Notes under the pieces: generated by a model
Database searches by the model: none
Seen by the model: only the letters and a program-made list of their open reading frames with translations
Told to the model about the DNA's origin: nothing
Shown here: positions 46,031 through 60,298 of the stretch, one piece after another
Position numbering within the stretch: the stretch's first letter is position 1
How the letters are laid out: each line of letters starts with the position of its first letter
Position numbers and translations under genes: made by a program
IMG/VR virus record: IMGVR_UViG_3300042402_002564
Coordinates: 1 to 64,000 of that record
Length of the DNA stretch: 64,000 bases
Source of the DNA: a virus
Strand: one strand, 5' to 3'

Positions 46031-46621
46031 ATGACACCCTTTGAGGTCTATAAAACATATCTTGCTTTAAAAAATCATTTTACTAATGATAGTTACGATT
46101 ATCATAAGTATTGTGGTAAAAGTAGGGCAACTTTACAGTCCTTTTATAAAAGGAAGGATAGGTATTGGTTTGAAAAATTATCTAGACAAAAAAGTGATAA
46201 AGAAGTTATAAATTTTTTTGTTGCTAATTTTGTTACCTGTGATGATCCCCAATCATTGTGGATTGGAGAAATAATTAGAGAAGGCGAAGATAGATACGTC
46301 GATTGGGAAAAAAAGAAGCAATCACTTTCATATCATTTTAAAGAGCAAGTAAGTAATATATTTAATAAAACTAATCTTGATGAGATGTTTTTTATAGAGG
46401 GATCATCTCATCCACAAATATTGAAGCAGCATTTACAAAATAATATCTCCTTAGAAACTTTTATTATACTTGATAAAATTTTTGGTTTTGTAAAAATATT
46501 TGATAAAAAATTAAATGACCCTGTGTGGAAATTTATATCATCTAGAATAAAAAAATATTCTTCGTTTCTAAATATTGATATATTTAAGTATAAAAAGATT
46601 TTAAAGGAGTGTGTATTATGA
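46031..46621 (+). CDS. gp59: Replicative helicase loader gp59
   Basis: The 196-residue protein has the gp59 N-terminal pattern FEVYKTYLALKNHFTNDSYD, then YHKYCGKSRATLQSFYKRKD and RYWFEKLSRQ, in the same order as T4 gp59. gp59 loads gp41 helicase on gp32-coated forked DNA. It is slightly shorter than T4 gp59 (217). It ends with four bases overlapping the next ATG. Position between gp33 and gp32 is the T4 order. Confidence 0.87.
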   Translation: MTPFEVYKTYLALKNHFTNDSYDYHKYCGKSRATLQSFYKRKDRYWFEKLSRQKSDKEVINFFVANFVTCDDPQSLWIGEIIREGEDRYVDWEKKKQSLSYHFKEQVSNIFNKTNLDEMFFIEGSSHPQILKQHLQNNISLETFIILDKIFGFVKIFDKKLNDPVWKFISSRIKKYSSFLNIDIFKYKKILKECVL

Positions 46622-47061: not shown

Positions 47062-48027
47062 ATGTCTTTCTCTGATCTTAAAAAGCAATCTTCTCTTGGT
47101 TCTCTTACACAAAAACTTGTTAAAGAGATGGAGAAGATGAATACATCTTCTAATGGTTCTGATGAACGTCTCTGGAAACCAGAGATGGATAAAACTGGTA
47201 ATGGTTATGCCGTTGTTCGTTTTCTTCCTGCACCAGAAGGTGAAGATCTTCCGTGGGTAAAAATGTATGCCCATGGATTCCAAGGTCCTGGTGGATGGTA
47301 TATTGAGAATTCTCTTACTACTATTGGACAAAAAGATCCAGTCTCCGAATACAACCGAGAACTGTGGAATAGTGGTAACGAAAAGGATAAAGAAACTGTT
47401 CGTAAGCAGAAGCGTAAACTGTCTTACTACTCCAACATCTATGTGGTGAAGGACCCAGCAAATCCCGCAAATGAGGGTAAAATCTTCCTCTTCAAGTATG
47501 GTAAAAAAATCTTTGATAAGATTATGGCAGCAATGCAACCAGAATTTGAAGACGAAACTCCCATCAATCCTTTTGACTTCTGGCAAGGTGCAAACTTTAA
47601 ACTGAAGATTCGTAAGGTTGATGGTTATTGGAACTATGATAAGTCCGAATTTGATCGCCCTGAACCTCTTCTGGATGATGATGAAGCAATGGAAGCAATT
47701 TGGAAGAAAGAGTATTCTCTTAACGAATTGATTGCACCTTCACAATTCAAGACTTATGAAGAACTTGAGAAGCGTCTTAAGTATGTCCTGGGACAAAAAT
47801 CTGCATCACAACGTCCTATTGATGATGAAGTTGATGATGAAGACAATTCACGCGGTTCCTATACACCAAACTTTGAGTCTCGTCGTCAAACTTCTGAACT
47901 TCCAGAAGATCTTAGTTCCGAATTAAATGCACTCGCTTCAAATTCTAAAAGTTCAGCATCTTCTTCGTATGAAGATGAGGAAGAAGATGATGCTATGAGT
48001 TACTTCCAAAAATTAGCTGAAAGTTGA
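47062..48027 (+). CDS. gp32: Single-stranded DNA-binding protein gp32
   Basis: The 321-residue protein has the gp32 layout. There is a basic N-terminal LAST-type region (SFSDLKKQSSLGSLTQKLVK), the OB-fold core with VVRFLPAPEGEDLPWVKMYAH, and an acidic, Ser-rich C-tail (VDDEDNSRGS, YEDEEEDDAM). It coats single-stranded DNA in replication and recombination. The His/Cys zinc-binding site of T4 gp32 is absent: residues 75-125 hold KKRKLSYYSNIYVV-type sequence and no Cys. It has its own sigma-70 promoter and structured leader. It abuts the reverse-strand gp53 gene with no gap. Confidence 0.95.
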   Translation: MSFSDLKKQSSLGSLTQKLVKEMEKMNTSSNGSDERLWKPEMDKTGNGYAVVRFLPAPEGEDLPWVKMYAHGFQGPGGWYIENSLTTIGQKDPVSEYNRELWNSGNEKDKETVRKQKRKLSYYSNIYVVKDPANPANEGKIFLFKYGKKIFDKIMAAMQPEFEDETPINPFDFWQGANFKLKIRKVDGYWNYDKSEFDRPEPLLDDDEAMEAIWKKEYSLNELIAPSQFKTYEELEKRLKYVLGQKSASQRPIDDEVDDEDNSRGSYTPNFESRRQTSELPEDLSSELNALASNSKSSASSSYEDEEEDDAMSYFQKLAES

Positions 48028-52927: not shown

Positions 52928-53791
52928 ATGACTGGTAAAAGTCTTCCACCAATAAATCCTGGAGTATCCATGTCTAGAATAAAAAGCAGGTTATTGCAAC
53001 CTGCTTTGACTTCTAATTATTCTGTTATAATTACTCCTCCAGGTAAAGCATCTTTTCCTAGACAATCTGGAGATAAAGGTTTTGCCTTATCATTTATAGA
53101 AACCCAATTAGGTGAACAAATAGATAATGAAATATTAGAATTATCCTGCTCTGAAGCATCTCTTCCAGGGTCATCTTTTGCAACTATTGATATTAGTAAT
53201 GATTATATGGGAATAACACAAAAACATGCTTATAGGAGATTATATGATGACAGGGCAGACTTTACTTTTTATGTAACTCAAAATAGTAATTATTATCAAA
53301 TAAGATTTTTTGAAGCATGGATGAGATATATTGCAAATGAACAGTATATTCAAGGAGTATCTGCTAATGATAAATTATCGGGGGCATCAATATCTAGAGT
53401 TCAATATCCAGAATTTTATAAATCAGTTATTCAAATTGCCAAATATGAAAGAGACTATGGAACAGGAAGATCACCGACATCACCAATACTAATTTATAAA
53501 TTTATAGAGGCATTTCCTATAAGTATTAATTCTATTCCAGTATCTTATGAATCTTCTTCTTTATTAAAAGTTACCGTATCTTTTTCTTATACTAGATATG
53601 TCATTGATGACTTGACTACAGTTGCAGAATCGACAGTACCAAGTAGAAATCCAAATTCAATTGGAAATCCAGATGTTCCTTCTGGAACAACAACAGTACA
53701 GTTAAATGGACCAAGATCTACGGATATACCTAGAAATGTTACTTTACAAGATGGAAGATCTACATTAGCCCAATTGAATGATGGTGTATAA
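52928..53791 (+). CDS. gp54: Baseplate tail tube initiator gp54
   Basis: The 287-residue protein has the tail-tube fold seen in gp19 and gp54. ILELSCSEASLPGSSFATID, ITQKHAYRRLYDDRADFTFY, IRFFEAWMRYIANEQ, SINSIPVSYESSSLLKVTVSFSYTRY (quoted as INSIPVSYESSSLLKV and FSYTRY) are typical. gp54 starts polymerisation of the tail tube on the baseplate. It is the first forward gene of the hub operon, divergent from gp4. A short Pro/Ser-rich C-tail (residues 215-287) is unlike T4. Confidence 0.82.
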   Translation: MTGKSLPPINPGVSMSRIKSRLLQPALTSNYSVIITPPGKASFPRQSGDKGFALSFIETQLGEQIDNEILELSCSEASLPGSSFATIDISNDYMGITQKHAYRRLYDDRADFTFYVTQNSNYYQIRFFEAWMRYIANEQYIQGVSANDKLSGASISRVQYPEFYKSVIQIAKYERDYGTGRSPTSPILIYKFIEAFPISINSIPVSYESSSLLKVTVSFSYTRYVIDDLTTVAESTVPSRNPNSIGNPDVPSGTTTVQLNGPRSTDIPRNVTLQDGRSTLAQLNDGV

Positions 53792-53838: not shown

Positions 53839-54558
53839 ATGCCTTTACCAAAAATTTCTGCCCCAACATATGAGTTGGAATTGCCTTCAACTGGTCAAGT
53901 TATACAATATAGACCTTTTTTAGTAAGAGAAGAAAAATTATTAGTTCTTGCTTTAGAAAGTGAAGATACAAAACAAATTACTACAGCAATTAAAACAGTT
54001 ATTAAAAATTGTATTATTACAAAAAATATAAAAGTAGAATCGTTACCAACTTTTGATATTGAATATTTGTTCTTAAATATTCGTGGAAAATCTGTTGGGG
54101 AAGAACTTGAAGTTAATATTATTTGTCCTGATGACGAACAGACTACAGTGCCTGTGACTATTAATATTGATGATATTCAAGTACAAAAAAATGATAAGCA
54201 CAAAACGCAGATTAAAATTGATGACTCTATAATGATGGAAATGAAGTATCCTTCATTGGATCAATTTATTAAGAGTAACTTTGATTTTAGTGGTAATAGT
54301 AATATGGAGCAATCTTTTGATTTAGTTGCTTCTTGTGTTGATAAAATTTATACTGAGGATGAAGCATGGTCTTCCTCTGATGTAACTAAAAAAGAATTAA
54401 TAGAATTTTTAGATCAGATGAATTCTTCTCAATTTAAAATGATTGAAGAATTTTTTGATACTATGCCAAAACTTTCTCATGAAATTAAAGTTACTAATCC
54501 CAACACTGGGGTTGAGAGCACTGTCGTTCTGGAGGGTCTGTCGAGTTTTTTCGTATAG
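53839..54558 (+). CDS. gp26: Baseplate hub assembly protein gp26 (shifted product reaches 54737)
   Basis: The 239-residue zero-frame product matches gp26-type proteins. It has YELELPSTGQVIQYRPFLVR, VLALESEDTKQITTAIKTVI, KNIKVESLPTFDIEYLFLNI and PSLDQFIKSNF. gp26 is a baseplate hub assembly factor in T4. The last codons AGT TTT TTC GTA TAG contain a classic T TTT TTC slip site with an upstream GGAGGG. A -1 shift would bypass the stop and add the downstream 55-residue frame to give 299 residues. It directly precedes two tape-measure-like genes, the position of tail assembly chaperones with programmed frameshifts in other tailed phages. An AGGAG site precedes the start. Confidence 0.85.
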   Translation: MPLPKISAPTYELELPSTGQVIQYRPFLVREEKLLVLALESEDTKQITTAIKTVIKNCIITKNIKVESLPTFDIEYLFLNIRGKSVGEELEVNIICPDDEQTTVPVTINIDDIQVQKNDKHKTQIKIDDSIMMEMKYPSLDQFIKSNFDFSGNSNMEQSFDLVASCVDKIYTEDEAWSSSDVTKKELIEFLDQMNSSQFKMIEEFFDTMPKLSHEIKVTNPNTGVESTVVLEGLSSFFV

Positions 54559-54575
54559 CCCTGGTCCACATGGAC
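54531..54575 (+). other. Predicted programmed -1 ribosomal frameshift site
   Basis: GGAGGG (54531-54536) is an internal Shine-Dalgarno-like element. Nine bases later the heptamer T TTT TTC (54546-54552) is in the right phase for -1 slippage. The zero-frame stop TAG is at 54556-54558. A small hairpin, GTCC/GGAC with loop ACAT (54564-54575), follows. The -1 frame is open from the slip site through 54737. No ribosome binding site precedes the ATG at 54570, so frameshifting is the more likely way to express this frame. Confidence 0.8.
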
Positions 54576-54737
54576 TTAGAGAATTATTATAAATTAACTT
54601 TCTCTTTAATTCAGTATCATAAATATTCATTAACAGAGATTGAAAATTTGATACCGTGGGAGCGGGATATTTACGTTACTTTATTGAAGGCTCACTTGGA
54701 AGAAGAAAAACTTAAACAGCAACAAAATGGCGGCTAA
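54570..54737 (+). CDS. Downstream half of the gp26 frameshift product (T-like, 55 aa frame)
   Basis: The 55-residue frame (MDLENYYKLTFSLIQYHKYS, LTEIENLIPWERDIYVTLLK, AHLEEEKLKQQQNGG) has the look of the gpT-like part of tail assembly chaperones, with the IENLIPWERxxYVxLL motif. It has an ATG but no Shine-Dalgarno site. It lies in the -1 frame relative to gp26, which reaches it through the slip site at 54546. It overlaps the tape-measure-like gene by 11 bases. In the fusion, RIALVH links the two parts. Confidence 0.72.
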   Translation: MDLENYYKLTFSLIQYHKYSLTEIENLIPWERDIYVTLLKAHLEEEKLKQQQNGG

Positions 54738-57129
54738 TAAACCAAAGTTTATCGATAAATTTTGGCCAATATCTACTATTGTAGCAAGTAGAACTGGGCA
54801 ATACAAAAAAATACTTGCTCAACGAATGGAGAAGAGCAAGTATTTAATCGAGAATAACTTTGGTGTAAAGGCAGATAAAGTAGTAGATACTTTTATTAAA
54901 GCATATTTGTCTTCTGATAAGGATTATCCAGCACCAATTGAGTCTGTACAAAATCCACAATCTAATAAAGACTTTAGTTTACGTGATCAATATATTTTAT
55001 TTTTGTGGAATTATTATGTAAATGATAAAAGTAAAAAAACAAAAATACCAAAAGAAGTTCCTCCCAAAGAACAGTCTAAAGGAAATATTTCAGATCCTTC
55101 TGGTGCATTAACCTTATATGAAGGTATCAAAGAAGAAGATTTAATTAATGAAGAAATTGATGAAAGAATATTAAAAATACTTGGAATACAAGATGTTTTT
55201 GATATTGATTATGGTACTTATTTGAGTTTGCTAAAAGAAAAATTAGTAACCATAAGTATGGGGGATAAAAAAATCCCCAGAGAAGAGCAGATATTATTAC
55301 AAGATGAATTTAAAAGAGTAAAAGGAAAAGTTGGTAGATTTAAAGTAAGAAGTAAAAAAATAAATGCTGATAATATTGGAACAACAGGTCCGATAAGAGT
55401 ATCAAGGCAGCAATATTTTCTTGCTGGAAAAGTTTCTGTACCTGATGTTTCTAGAGAATCTGCAAACATTGGAAGTTCTATAAAAAAAGATATAGAAGCA
55501 ATAAAAAATTCTATAGTTTCTATTGCCTCTCTTCTTGCATCTCAAAATAAACTGATTCAAAAAGATGCGGATAATCAAAGAAAAATTGCTGAGAATTTAA
55601 AAAGAGGTAAAAGAGAGGAAGACCTAGAAAAAAAAGATAACAAGTTAAAAACATTAGCATCAAAAGTCTTAGCACCATTCCAAAGTATTCTTGACAAAAT
55701 AATTAATTTTATTGTTTGGACTTTACTTGGTCGTTTGATGGTCAAGTTTATAGATTGGATATCAGACAAAAAGAATAAGAAGAAAATTGATACTTTAGTT
55801 AGATTTATTGGTGATTGGTGGCCTGCTTTATTGGGGGCATTTCTATTATTCGCAACTCCTTTAGGCGGATTTGTTAGATCTATTATTGGAACGGTTGCTA
55901 AATTAACATTTAGATTGAGTAAATTTGCAATCCCTAAACTTCTTAATTTTGTAAAGGCAAATCCTGTTGCGGCAGCTCTTATTGGTGGTAGTATTGCTGC
56001 TGGGGTTGGTGCTTATGCATCCACACAACAAGTAGATAAGACTAGAAAAGAAAACAAAAAATCAGATCCTTCTACAGTACTACCTCAAGAAACTGCAAAA
56101 ACTGGTAAAGCACCAGGTGCTGCACAGTTATCGCAAGAGCAAATACAAAGTCGTGGATTTAATATGTTTAGGGGTGGAGGACTAATCCCTAAATTTGGAG
56201 ATTATCAAAAACCAACTCCAATTAGAGATATTGGATTTGAAAGTGGTGGTGCTATAACCGATGATACTGGTGTTAGAATTGCTGGTGCTGGAAAGGATAC
56301 TCAATTAATTGCTGCTCAACCTGGAGAGATTGTTATTTCTAAACCAGCAGTTGATAAGTATGGGGCAAACTTCTTTTTAGGATTAAACAAGTCTGGTGGG
56401 GGAACCAATGTTCCTAAGATGGTGAACAATATTCAACTAGCTGCTGGTGGAGGAATGGTTGGAACAATAGTTCCAGAAAAACCATCTGCTGCTGCTAAAA
56501 AATCTGTTTTTAATCCTGAGGTTGCTAATAAAAAATCTATGATGGGTCTTAATAATATTATGAATGTGACTAATTCTTTTGACCAAAATAAAAAAATGAC
56601 AACTCCAACAAAAATGTTTGGAGATACCGCAGATACTTTACAAAATACACCAACTACAAATAAAAAATCAAATCAAAAAACATCTTCCATTAAACCATTT
56701 TCCCTTAAACCATCAAGAATACAACCAAATAATAAACCATCCAATTTACAAATATCTAATGATACAAACTCAGTTCCGATAAAAGACGCTGCGTTACAAT
56801 CATTTAGACCATTATCTCAAAAAATGCCTTTCATTGTACCATTCATTAATAATGCAATGACAATGATAAGTGGTGTGGGTGATACTTTAGTCGATCTTAG
56901 AAAAAGAAATATTAATATACAACCAAATATTAAGCAGTATATTCCAGAACCACCTAGTGTAAAATCAAAATCAAATATTATTACATTACCACCTGTTATA
57001 AAACAGTCAACTGAATCTTCTGGAACTAAAATGAGTGCTATAAGAGATGTGGAAGATTTCCCTGCATTTATGATGAGTTCTCATCGAAAAAATAATATTC
57101 AAATATACGGAATAGGTGGTATAAACTAA
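54727..57129 (+). CDS. Tape-measure-like tail hub protein 1 (800 aa)
   Basis: The 800-residue protein has a charged N-terminal half with coiled-coil stretches (about 245-310). Then come hydrophobic segments at about 327-345, 364-383 and 407-428 (WWPALLGAFLLFATPLGG, VAAALIGGSIAAGVGAYAS). At about 530 is PGEIVISKPAVDKYGANFF, the tape-measure end motif PGE-[FIV]-[VI]-x-x-x-A-V-x-x-[YF]-G. It follows the chaperone-like frameshift gene, as tape measures do. It may fill the gp29 role, alone or with the next gene. The C-terminal 250 residues are low complexity and Lys/Pro/Asn-rich. Confidence 0.7.
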   Translation: MAANKPKFIDKFWPISTIVASRTGQYKKILAQRMEKSKYLIENNFGVKADKVVDTFIKAYLSSDKDYPAPIESVQNPQSNKDFSLRDQYILFLWNYYVNDKSKKTKIPKEVPPKEQSKGNISDPSGALTLYEGIKEEDLINEEIDERILKILGIQDVFDIDYGTYLSLLKEKLVTISMGDKKIPREEQILLQDEFKRVKGKVGRFKVRSKKINADNIGTTGPIRVSRQQYFLAGKVSVPDVSRESANIGSSIKKDIEAIKNSIVSIASLLASQNKLIQKDADNQRKIAENLKRGKREEDLEKKDNKLKTLASKVLAPFQSILDKIINFIVWTLLGRLMVKFIDWISDKKNKKKIDTLVRFIGDWWPALLGAFLLFATPLGGFVRSIIGTVAKLTFRLSKFAIPKLLNFVKANPVAAALIGGSIAAGVGAYASTQQVDKTRKENKKSDPSTVLPQETAKTGKAPGAAQLSQEQIQSRGFNMFRGGGLIPKFGDYQKPTPIRDIGFESGGAITDDTGVRIAGAGKDTQLIAAQPGEIVISKPAVDKYGANFFLGLNKSGGGTNVPKMVNNIQLAAGGGMVGTIVPEKPSAAAKKSVFNPEVANKKSMMGLNNIMNVTNSFDQNKKMTTPTKMFGDTADTLQNTPTTNKKSNQKTSSIKPFSLKPSRIQPNNKPSNLQISNDTNSVPIKDAALQSFRPLSQKMPFIVPFINNAMTMISGVGDTLVDLRKRNINIQPNIKQYIPEPPSVKSKSNIITLPPVIKQSTESSGTKMSAIRDVEDFPAFMMSSHRKNNIQIYGIGGIN

Positions 57130-57130
57130 A

Positions 57131-60100
57131 ATGGCTGTACTAGATCCTAAAAAATTATTACCATCTTCTAAGGAAGAAAATAAAAGGGCATCTTATAGTA
57201 ATGTTACTAGATTTTTAGTACCAGCAAAAAATGTGCAGTATAGGGATACTGCACCAGTTTCTCCAGAACCTGATGAACAAGAATCTAACATTGATTTAAA
57301 AAAAGATGTTTTAATTATTAAAGAAAAAGTAATATCTATAGAGGATATTTTAAAAAAGAGTTTAGATTTACAAAAGAAAACTTTAATAGGAAAAAGTAAA
57401 GATTTAGAAAATAGAAAAAGAGCAAAAAAAGAAAGTATTTTAGAACAAAAAAAAGATAAACCTGTTCTAGGTGGATTATCTGTTCCCACTAAAAGAATGG
57501 GACTACTTGACAGCATTAAAAATTTTGTTACTAGTACTTTACTTGGATTTGTTTTAGTAAGACTAGTAAAATATCTCCCACAAATAATTGATTTTGCTAA
57601 AAAAATAACTCCAGCAATAACTTTTATTGAGAGTTTTGTTGGTGGAATGGCTAATAAATTAATTAGTTTTATTGAGATTGGATATGGTGTATATGATAAA
57701 GTCAGAGATACTATTAAAAATATTGGTGGAGAGAATCTTCAAAAAACTTTTGATCAATTTTCTGGGCAGTTAAACACTTTTATTAATCTTGCTATAATTG
57801 CTGGAATGTCCACCATGGGTGGAACTGATTTTGGAATGGGTAAAAAAAGTCCAAAGGGACTGCCTACTAAACCTGGAACAAAACCTACAGCACCATCAAA
57901 TCAATCTCTTAACAGATATTTAAATCGAGGGAAGGAAGCAAAATTAATTGAAAGAAAATTTGGTAATAGTGCAGCAAGATATTATGAAGAACTAAGAGAC
58001 TCTGGTAAAAATTCTACACAAGCATTCAAAGAAGTTAAAAGAAGATTTCAACCAAGAGGATTATTTAATCGCAGAAATATTTCTGGACTTGCTGGAGAAG
58101 GACAAACTGCTGGGCAAGTCGGTAGGAGAGGGCTTGGAAGAACTGCAACTAGATTTGCTACAAAGAACTTTGGTAAGGGTGGGGCAAAAATTGCTAGTGG
58201 TGCTACTAAAGCACTCGGTAGATTTCCTATTATTGGACCTTTAGTTGATTTTGCTTTTAGATATTTTGTTCTTAGAGAACCACTTGGTAAATCTGCTGCT
58301 GGTGCTGTTGGTGCTGGAGTTGGGCAAGCACTTGGTACATGGTTGGGTGGAACTGTAGGTGGTGTTGCTGGAACTGTAGTCCCAATTATTGGTAATTTAA
58401 TTGGTGCTGGTGCTGGTGCTGCGATTGGAGGTCTTCTTGGTGGATTAATTGGAGATCAATTGGGTGTAAGTTTGTATGAAACCATTGTTGCTTATCAAAA
58501 ACCACCAAAAATTGAAGGCCGTGCTAAAGGTGGACAGGTATCTACAAGAGGTGGAAAACAAGTTGGTGGAAAAATACAAAGATCTTTTAAAAGAGCAAAA
58601 CCAAAACCACCAAAAATAAATGAAAGACCAGTTCAAATTGGTAGAGATATTGGTGGACAAGAAGTAATTGAAAAAGTATTTACTCCAGAAGATCCAAAAA
58701 ATTCTCAGCAAATGAGTTCTTTGAGGGTTTTAACAACTGCATCTAGTGAACTTAAAAAACCAAATAGTTCATTTTTTGGTCAAATTATGGGTGTTGGTGT
58801 TGATCTTGTAATGGGTCAAAAACCAAATAAGAATTTTTATAATCAAGTTGGCAATGCTTTTGGTTCGGTTATTCAACAATTAATTGATACAAATGCTGAT
58901 ATGGCAGTCAATGATACTGCAAGAACTATTCTAGCAATGGCTAATGGTGGAATAGTTCCGACTATGTTATCAAATGATAAGTTAAATTTTGGTGAAAGAG
59001 TTGGAAATGCTGTTGCTGGAATGTTTAGGCAATTTGTAGAAAGACAATCTGATATAATATTAAATTCGATTAAATTGGAATCTGAAAAGACACCTCCTGC
59101 TGGGTCTGTTACTGGAGACCCTACTGCTGGATTAGATGGAGAACTTGCTGCTGGAACTGTGGCAAGAGGGCAAATAACTATTGAACAACTTGTTGGTTTG
59201 GCTAAAGGTGCTGGATTTAGTCAGTCTGATGCTATAATTATGGCTGCAATTGCTATGGCAGAATCTGGTGGAAATTCCAACGCACATAATGCAAAACCAC
59301 CAGATAATTCATATGGTTTATGGCAAATTAATATGATTGGTAATTTGGGTCCAGAGAGAAGAAAACAAATAGGAATAACAAGTGATGACCAATTAAAAGA
59401 CCCAGTTATAAATGCACACGCTGCAAAATTGATAAAACAAAGTCAAGGATTTAGTGCATGGACAGTATATAAAACTGGGGCATACAAAAAACATTTAAAT
59501 GCTGCACAAAAATCTGCAAGTGCTTCACCAATTACAGTATACAAACCATCAACTGGTGCAAATATTGATCCAAATATGCAGCTTGGAAGTGGGCGAGGGA
59601 ATTTACAATCTGTTAGATCATTAGCAGAAAGTATGGGTGTTCCTTTATTCTCTAGTTATCGCCCAGGATCTAGAGGTTATCATGGAGTTGGTCGTGCAAT
59701 GGATTTCTCAAATGATTCTAAAGGATTAGGAACACCGCAACAACTTGCTTTGGCAAAAGAAATTGTAAAAAGATATGGAAGTTCCGTTCAAGAATTAATA
59801 TATACTCCTCTTGGATTTGGAATTTCTGGAGGTAAAAAAGTTCCTTTAACACATTGGGGACCACCATCAAAATCTAAATGGGCTGGGGGAGATCCTTCCA
59901 ATACTAATGCTGCACATTATGACCATGTTCACGTAGCATTTAAAAAGGGTGGTTATACTGGTGATGGTGGTGTAGGATTACTTCACAAAAATGAAATGGT
60001 TATGTCTTCAAAGGCAGTTAATCTATTTGGCAGAGAAACTTTTGAAGCAATGAATGAGATGGGTAATAAAATGCATGATATGAAACCATCTGCAAAAATA

Positions 60101-60298
60101 TCAAAAGTAAATAAAAAATCTTATGTTCCTGAAAGCATAAAATCTCAAGCATCATATGAATCTACTGGAATGACCGTTGTAATACTACCAATACATGAAA
60201 GAATTAAATCAACATCTACTGTTGGGTCTGGTGGAGGAATTCCTAATATTGGAAGATCTGCACACATAGATAATAGTATCGAATCCGCACTAGCATGA
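57131..60298 (+). CDS. Tape-measure-like tail hub protein 2 with SLT and M15-type peptidoglycan domains
   Basis: The 1055-residue protein has an N-terminal charged region and an amphipathic part. A Gly/Ala-rich hydrophobic stretch follows (about 365-445; GTWLGGTVGGVAGTVVPIIG). A lytic-transglycosylase-like SLT domain (about 681-790) has AAIAMAESGGNSNA with the catalytic Glu and SYGLWQINMIG. A D-Ala-D-Ala carboxypeptidase M15-like domain (about 835-940) has SSYRPGSRGYHGVGRAMDFS and AHYDHVHVAF, with the His/Asp/His zinc ligands. After these comes HKNEMVMSSKAVNLFG, a tape-measure-type end motif. The two enzymes could open host peptidoglycan during DNA entry. It starts one base after the stop of the previous gene. 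Confidence 0.82.
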   Translation: MAVLDPKKLLPSSKEENKRASYSNVTRFLVPAKNVQYRDTAPVSPEPDEQESNIDLKKDVLIIKEKVISIEDILKKSLDLQKKTLIGKSKDLENRKRAKKESILEQKKDKPVLGGLSVPTKRMGLLDSIKNFVTSTLLGFVLVRLVKYLPQIIDFAKKITPAITFIESFVGGMANKLISFIEIGYGVYDKVRDTIKNIGGENLQKTFDQFSGQLNTFINLAIIAGMSTMGGTDFGMGKKSPKGLPTKPGTKPTAPSNQSLNRYLNRGKEAKLIERKFGNSAARYYEELRDSGKNSTQAFKEVKRRFQPRGLFNRRNISGLAGEGQTAGQVGRRGLGRTATRFATKNFGKGGAKIASGATKALGRFPIIGPLVDFAFRYFVLREPLGKSAAGAVGAGVGQALGTWLGGTVGGVAGTVVPIIGNLIGAGAGAAIGGLLGGLIGDQLGVSLYETIVAYQKPPKIEGRAKGGQVSTRGGKQVGGKIQRSFKRAKPKPPKINERPVQIGRDIGGQEVIEKVFTPEDPKNSQQMSSLRVLTTASSELKKPNSSFFGQIMGVGVDLVMGQKPNKNFYNQVGNAFGSVIQQLIDTNADMAVNDTARTILAMANGGIVPTMLSNDKLNFGERVGNAVAGMFRQFVERQSDIILNSIKLESEKTPPAGSVTGDPTAGLDGELAAGTVARGQITIEQLVGLAKGAGFSQSDAIIMAAIAMAESGGNSNAHNAKPPDNSYGLWQINMIGNLGPERRKQIGITSDDQLKDPVINAHAAKLIKQSQGFSAWTVYKTGAYKKHLNAAQKSASASPITVYKPSTGANIDPNMQLGSGRGNLQSVRSLAESMGVPLFSSYRPGSRGYHGVGRAMDFSNDSKGLGTPQQLALAKEIVKRYGSSVQELIYTPLGFGISGGKKVPLTHWGPPSKSKWAGGDPSNTNAAHYDHVHVAFKKGGYTGDGGVGLLHKNEMVMSSKAVNLFGRETFEAMNEMGNKMHDMKPSAKISKVNKKSYVPESIKSQASYESTGMTVVILPIHERIKSTSTVGSGGGIPNIGRSAHIDNSIESALA

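Follow-up and report, generated by a model that had tools for sequence, protein, structure and literature searches.

Tail assembly chaperones and programmed frameshifting

In phages lambda (G/GT) and P2 (E/E+E'), a short gene carries a slippery heptamer near its 3' end, followed by a stop codon and a -1 frame extension, and lies before the tape measure gene. The gp26 locus described here has a short gene, heptamer, stop and extension in the same order; the large tail gene that follows is a candidate tape measure gene, and a rare long form would be expected. The locus differs from both systems in its heptamer (U UUU UUC), in the presence of an upstream Shine-Dalgarno (SD)-like element, and in its protein family (PF12322, that of T4 gp26), a family without demonstrated sequence relationship to lambda G. 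The upstream element recalls that of Escherichia coli dnaX, which likewise stands about 9-10 nt from a homopolymeric heptamer. However, dnaX combines A AAA AAG with a downstream hairpin, whereas the locus studied here has U UUU UUC and no strong consensus hairpin, in another gene and for another purpose. A further parallel comes from phage Adele (Vandenendeviridae/Andersonviridae), in which a poly-T motif (GTTTTT) ends the short chaperone gene and the -1 frame is uninterrupted in all genomes, although the phage families and the motif are different (PMC12846349).

In T4, gp26 and gp51 have been listed as hub assembly chaperones, gp51 being required yet absent from the particle (PMC3004832). The record of Acinetobacter phage AM101 labels the two proteins tape measure chaperones. 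According to the papers that cite the work (PMC10885494, PMC12846349), the T4-like tail chaperone genes gp26 and gp51 were identified by Vladimirov, Gautam and Davidson (2022, doi 10.1016/j.virol.2021.11.003). The same study is credited with knowledge of similar poly-T frameshift signals in T4-like phages (PMC12846349), and is cited by the authors of PRFect for the statement that some T4-like phages have short and fused long chaperone genes in place of frameshifting (PMC10885494). Frameshift-made chaperone pairs are already known in many tailed phages and the novelty of one more is limited. The first-pass annotation of this DNA had regarded the chaperone identity of gp26 as not being standard annotation. 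This holds for cyanophage records, which split gp26 and gp51 or omit gp51, but the identity of T4 gp26 and gp51 as chaperones has already been published, as reported by the citing papers. Our literature search, which covered Vladimirov et al. (2022) through those papers, returned no description of a cyanophage gp26-gp51 frameshift.

Here we establish the anatomy of the gp26 junction, its conservation, selection at the RNA level on its heptamer and SD-like element, and the homology of the fused reading frames to T4 gp51. The signals in the sequence suggest, with a probability that we put at about 0.9, that gp26 and gp26-gp51 are the short and long tail assembly chaperones of this phage and are made by programmed -1 frameshifting. 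Cyanophage records show this locus as two genes or lack gp51; read anew, it provides the probable long and short forms of the tail chaperone in an abundant marine myovirus group.

Anatomy of the gp26 junction

The window analyzed is the stretch of 64,000 nt that spans positions 1 to 64,000 of IMG/VR record IMGVR_UViG_3300042402_002564, and all features of the junction lie on its + strand. The gp26 open reading frame (ORF; 53839..54558) encodes 239 aa, the putative short, lambda G-like tail assembly chaperone, and matches Pfam PF12322 (T4_baseplate, 2e-76) and PHROG 150 (3e-81). Near its 3' end, the SD-like element GGAGGG (54531..54536) is separated by 9 nt from the slippery heptamer T TTT TTC (54546..54552), and the zero-frame stop codon TAG (54556..54558) follows one codon past the heptamer. 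The gp26 frame reads AGT TTT TTC, which places the heptamer in the X XXY YYZ phase needed for tandem -1 slippage. The -1 frame extension (54552..54737) adds 61 aa past the slip (RIALVHMDLE...QQNGG); it is open up to 54734 and ends in TAA at 54735-54737. It contains a 55-aa ORF with an ATG start (54570..54737) that is elsewhere annotated as 'gp51, baseplate hub assembly catalyst'. The elements of the junction that the first-pass annotation had read from the letters all proved correct to the base, and the 299 residues claimed for the virtual fusion of gp26 with the -1 extension are exact on recomputation. The elevated GC content claimed for the junction was likewise borne out, with 44% in block 54500-54599 vs 22-34% in all adjoining 100-nt blocks.

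Conservation and codon constraint of the slippery heptamer

Three IMG/VR scans of related contigs were pooled and yielded 170 distinct junctions. Homologues without the heptamer, or with a stop in the -1 frame, had been named in advance as evidence against frameshifting; none was found among these junctions, all 170 of which retain the heptamer in the same phase and at the same distance from the stop. Direct scoring detected the heptamer together with an uninterrupted -1 frame in 168 of them, and in every one of these 168 the frame continues for at least 120 nt beyond the stop or until the contig ends. Inspection of the remaining two loci (L036 and L116) revealed that the heptamer is kept with the stop one codon later; for L116 the wrong ORF had been picked on a contig that is cut. 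Locus L036 has a stop in the middle of gp26, probably a sequencing or assembly error, and an intact junction.

Codon usage at the junction was compared with usage elsewhere in the same genes. The Phe-Phe pair of the junction is encoded by TTT TTC in 123 of 123 distinct junctions, all with a distance of 3 nt to the stop, and the preceding base is always T despite variation of the residue it belongs to (S, N, G, D or H). Phe-Phe pairs elsewhere in these genes (n = 122) are encoded by TTC TTT (88), TTT TTT (28), TTC TTC (4) and, in only two cases, TTT TTC. Since TTT TTC and the T before it are fixed at the junction and Phe-Phe is almost never encoded in this way elsewhere, selection must act on the RNA and not on the protein alone. 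Note that the set of 123 junctions was assembled by looking for TTTTTTC, and consequently the unbiased count is that of the 170 IMG/VR junctions. In an analysis of 54 cyanophage-type representatives (<85% identity), the two junction Phe codons were the sole fully identical columns among 230 gp26 codon columns, and the most synonymously constrained. The heptamer signal is far beyond chance.

The motif extends well outside the cyanophages. Among the first set of named, diverse phages, 11 of 14 carry T TTT TTC before the stop: S-SM2, P-SSM2, S-RIM2, S-CAM7, P-RSM6 and S-WAM2, together with Desulfovibrio phage 7757, Aeromonas phages AsFcp_4 and phiWae14, Vibrio phage D480 and Sinorhizobium phage Phosso. 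Pseudomonas phage pf16 has a T7 tract, and Aeromonas phage AS-yj and Vibrio phage R10Z likewise carry T TTT TTC. Within that first set, only Ackermannviridae-type relatives deviate. The Ackermannviridae phages phiA8-29 and Kevin have NTT TTC and an open -1 frame, as do Vibrio phage D503 and Pseudomonas phage Cygsa01. In the NTT TTC phages (Ackermannviridae and similar; L093, L095, L184 and L185), the -1 frame stays open 3' of gp26 and in several of them contains an MPWH-like motif. The record of Desulfovibrio phage 7757 is unannotated (L090, 2501-3400); its gp26 is of the T4/cyanophage type and carries T TTT TTC, and its -1 extension has no start codon within the first 22 codons.

The Shine-Dalgarno-like element and the downstream region

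The codons that make up the SD-like element are GAG GGA/T/C or GAA GGG. The third base of one codon is compensated by that of the other, GGG following GAA in 35 of 42 cases and GAG in only 2 of 74 (Fisher p = 2.7e-20; 8e-8 on representatives), although these p-values overstate independence because the junction sequences are related. For this element, the calculated anti-SD pairing energy averages -7.9 kcal/mol, compared with -5.9 +/- 0.19 in synonymous recodings. The SD-like element is therefore also under selection at the RNA level. By calculation GGAGG pairs strongly, but the GAA GGG variant only weakly (about -5), and so an SD role may not fully account for the compensation.

Downstream of the stop, a possible small hairpin (GGUCC-ACAU-GGACU, 54563..54576, + strand) is weak in the window (fold z -0.9) and reaches fold z values of -2.8 to -3.4 in S-WAM2, S-CAM7 and P-SSM2. 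Compensatory changes in the 5-bp stem (18 cells vs 4.8 shuffled) provide suggestive covariation. RNAalifold recovered no consensus downstream structure. A conserved downstream pseudoknot or hairpin as a required stimulator was consequently rejected, given that strong structure is confined to some phages.

The -1 frame and the annotated gp51

The ORF of the -1 frame matches PHROG 634 (E 1.9e-25), the family known as gp51. The first-pass annotation had described a fused downstream frame without a name. The continuation in the -1 frame is real, but the frame is not unnamed: it is the annotated 'gp51'. The gene is missing from the annotation of S-WAM2 (L088, 3212-3393) and of Aeromonas phage AsFcp_4 (L091, 3215-3384), with the -1 frame intact in both. 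The PHROG 150 model of gp26 itself runs past the end of the gp26 ORF, and its end (positions 243-280) is weakly matched by the gp51 ORF (E 0.001), a hint that some members of the family are natural fusions.

If gp51 were translated on its own, a start site would be needed. Among 59 representatives, the earliest potential start codon of the -1 frame varies in position between codons 1 and 19 past the slip; several have TTG and one has none. These starts average -0.5 kcal/mol in SD pairing, compared with -2.9 for gp26 starts. The ATG at 54570 had been claimed to lack a ribosome binding site, which is true in effect, its pairing with the anti-SD being -2.7 kcal/mol. Starts of the gene 3' of the -1 frame are also weak (-0.8), and therefore a missing SD is not decisive by itself; the missing conserved start is the stronger point. 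An independent gp51 start as the main route was rejected, with start codons scattered and no SD. The small gp51 gene annotated next to gp26 is almost certainly the C-terminal end of the longer chaperone form.

Relation to T4 gp26 and gp51

T4 genes 26 and 51 are divergently transcribed neighbours, and their products are paralogues (profile-profile E 1.6e-19), PF12322 also spanning residues 1-201 of T4 gp51. The short form matches T4 gp26 (hhalign E 1.2e-24), and the fusion matches the gp51 family over 243 columns (hhalign E 1.7e-17). With a profile of the virtual fusion, the T4 gp26 match is limited to the first 240 positions, and the T4 gp51 match crosses the junction (23-285). The C-terminal part of the fusion matches T4 gp51 at 3.3e-8, in its C-terminal ~50 residues, vs 0.51 for T4 gp26 (profile-profile). 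The homology of T4 gp51 to the whole fusion provides an independent joining of both frames into one protein. Furthermore, since T4 gp51 aligns along both domains of the fusion, it is the counterpart, encoded as a gene of its own, of the frameshift product. T4 gp26 corresponds to the short form, and T4 gp51 is composed of the short-form domain and the same C-terminal domain. However, T4 encodes them in two divergent genes that lack the heptamer, whereas the phage of the window has a single locus with the frameshift signal.

The heptamer is absent in 8 of 8 T4-type two-gene phages examined. T4, CC31, VR7 and R3_1 retain Phe-Phe, encoded by TTC TTT or TTC TTC. Of the evidence from outside the locus, this association of a separate long gene with loss of the slippery site speaks most strongly for frameshifting. 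A search of the window's own 246,502-base record with T4 gp51 found nothing at E <= 1; it must be considered insensitive since the known gp26 escaped it too, and the record is possibly incomplete. Tentatively, and with less than even confidence, we suggest that a gp26-gp51 frameshift undescribed as such in cyanophages (Kyanoviridae) is ancestral in the T4 superfamily, the U UUU UUC site having been kept in cyanophages and in relatives infecting Vibrio, Aeromonas, Desulfovibrio and Sinorhizobium, and lost in T4-type coliphages upon duplication into separate genes for the short (gp26) and long (gp51) forms. The two arrangements offer a natural comparison of frameshifting with gene duplication for setting the ratio of two chaperone forms.

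Proposed mechanism and alternative explanations

Conservation of the heptamer and the homology of T4 gp51 to the whole fusion support the proposal that gp26 is a G/GT-type chaperone gene with a frameshift. Most ribosomes would terminate at the TAG (54556) and release the 239-aa form. A minority, delayed as the internal GGAGGG pairs with the anti-SD of 16S rRNA, would slip by -1 on U UUU UUC, both Phe-tRNAs re-pairing with UUU UUU, to produce the 299-aa gp26-gp51. Slippage, its efficiency and the stimulatory role of the SD-like element are inferred from the sequence signals. By analogy with lambda G/GT, both forms may coat the tape measure protein, the C-terminal domain of the long form may recruit the tail tube subunit, and both may then leave. 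The proposal offers a frameshift signal that is testable in cyanobacterial ribosomes.

Three other explanations were weighed against frameshifting. The locus could encode two separate proteins, the 239-aa gp26 and a stand-alone 55-aa gp51 whose initiation at the ATG at 54570 is coupled to termination of gp26. This ATG lies 11 nt past the stop in the window, comparable sites exist in many relatives, coupling requires no SD, and database records annotate gp51 apart. We nevertheless regard the explanation as very unlikely: the start varies in place and kind without an SD, the -1 frame is already conserved in the residues before it (FFR-[IVL]), T4 gp51 corresponds to the fusion over its full length, and neither the synonymously fixed T TTT TTC nor the SD compensation would be explained. 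Slippage could instead occur in transcription, with RNA polymerase inserting one extra U at the T6 tract in a fraction of the transcripts and so giving rise to the -1 product. This is an established alternative (PMC5009743), and a homopolymer run is present at the site (T6, or T7 in pf16). However, selection maintains the phase of the heptamer and an SD-like element with dnaX-like spacing, neither of which a polymerase needs. A T6 tract is also short for RNA polymerase slippage, and we give this explanation only a slim chance.

Finally, the heptamer could have arisen by chance in an AT-rich genome beside an unrelated small overlapping gene, the window having 8 copies of TTTTTTC on its + strand and 36 on its - strand. 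Coincidence is contradicted by the conservation of the site, by the synonymous statistics, and by its absence precisely in two-gene phages. The Phe-Phe codon counts and the conservation in IMG/VR refute it for practical purposes, and its probability is negligible.

Structure, gene neighbourhood and other sites in the window

An AlphaFold2 model built with IMG/VR sequences as the only input had a pLDDT of 69. A fold search of the PDB gave nothing significant, the HK97 chaperone 2ob9 appearing at E 1.6, and sequence searches of solved structures and of E. coli genomes gave no match.

The 5' neighbour of gp26 (52928..53791, + strand) encodes a tail tube-type protein (PF23849, 2.7e-16; PHROG 45 tail tube, 3.6e-32). 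On the 3' side, an 800-aa gene (54727..57129, + strand) overlaps the end of the -1 frame and encodes a protein with one hydrophobic segment (~365-387). It is a plausible candidate for the tape measure protein by size, position, hydrophobic segment and weak PHROG matches (PHROG 35029, function unknown). The 1055-aa gene that follows (57131-60298) encodes an SLT/lysozyme-like (transglycosylase-like) domain at residues 690-778 and could plausibly be a tail lysin or a second tape-measure-like protein. Beyond this domain, the sequence HYDHVHVAF resembles a peptidase motif.

We also surveyed both strands of the window for canonical heptamers with an upstream frame of at least 60 codons and a -1 extension of at least 40 codons. 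Three sites had the heptamer within 15 nt of a stop together with such an extension, conservation being examined at the gp26 site alone. At another site (46600-46621), a 196-aa ORF (46031-46621) has TTTAAAG 12 nt ahead of its stop, and the -1 frame is that of the next gene, which starts with GTG at 46609; the two are probably just overlapping genes of the usual sort. Downstream of this pair, the gene at 47062 looks like that of a gp32-type single-stranded DNA-binding protein.
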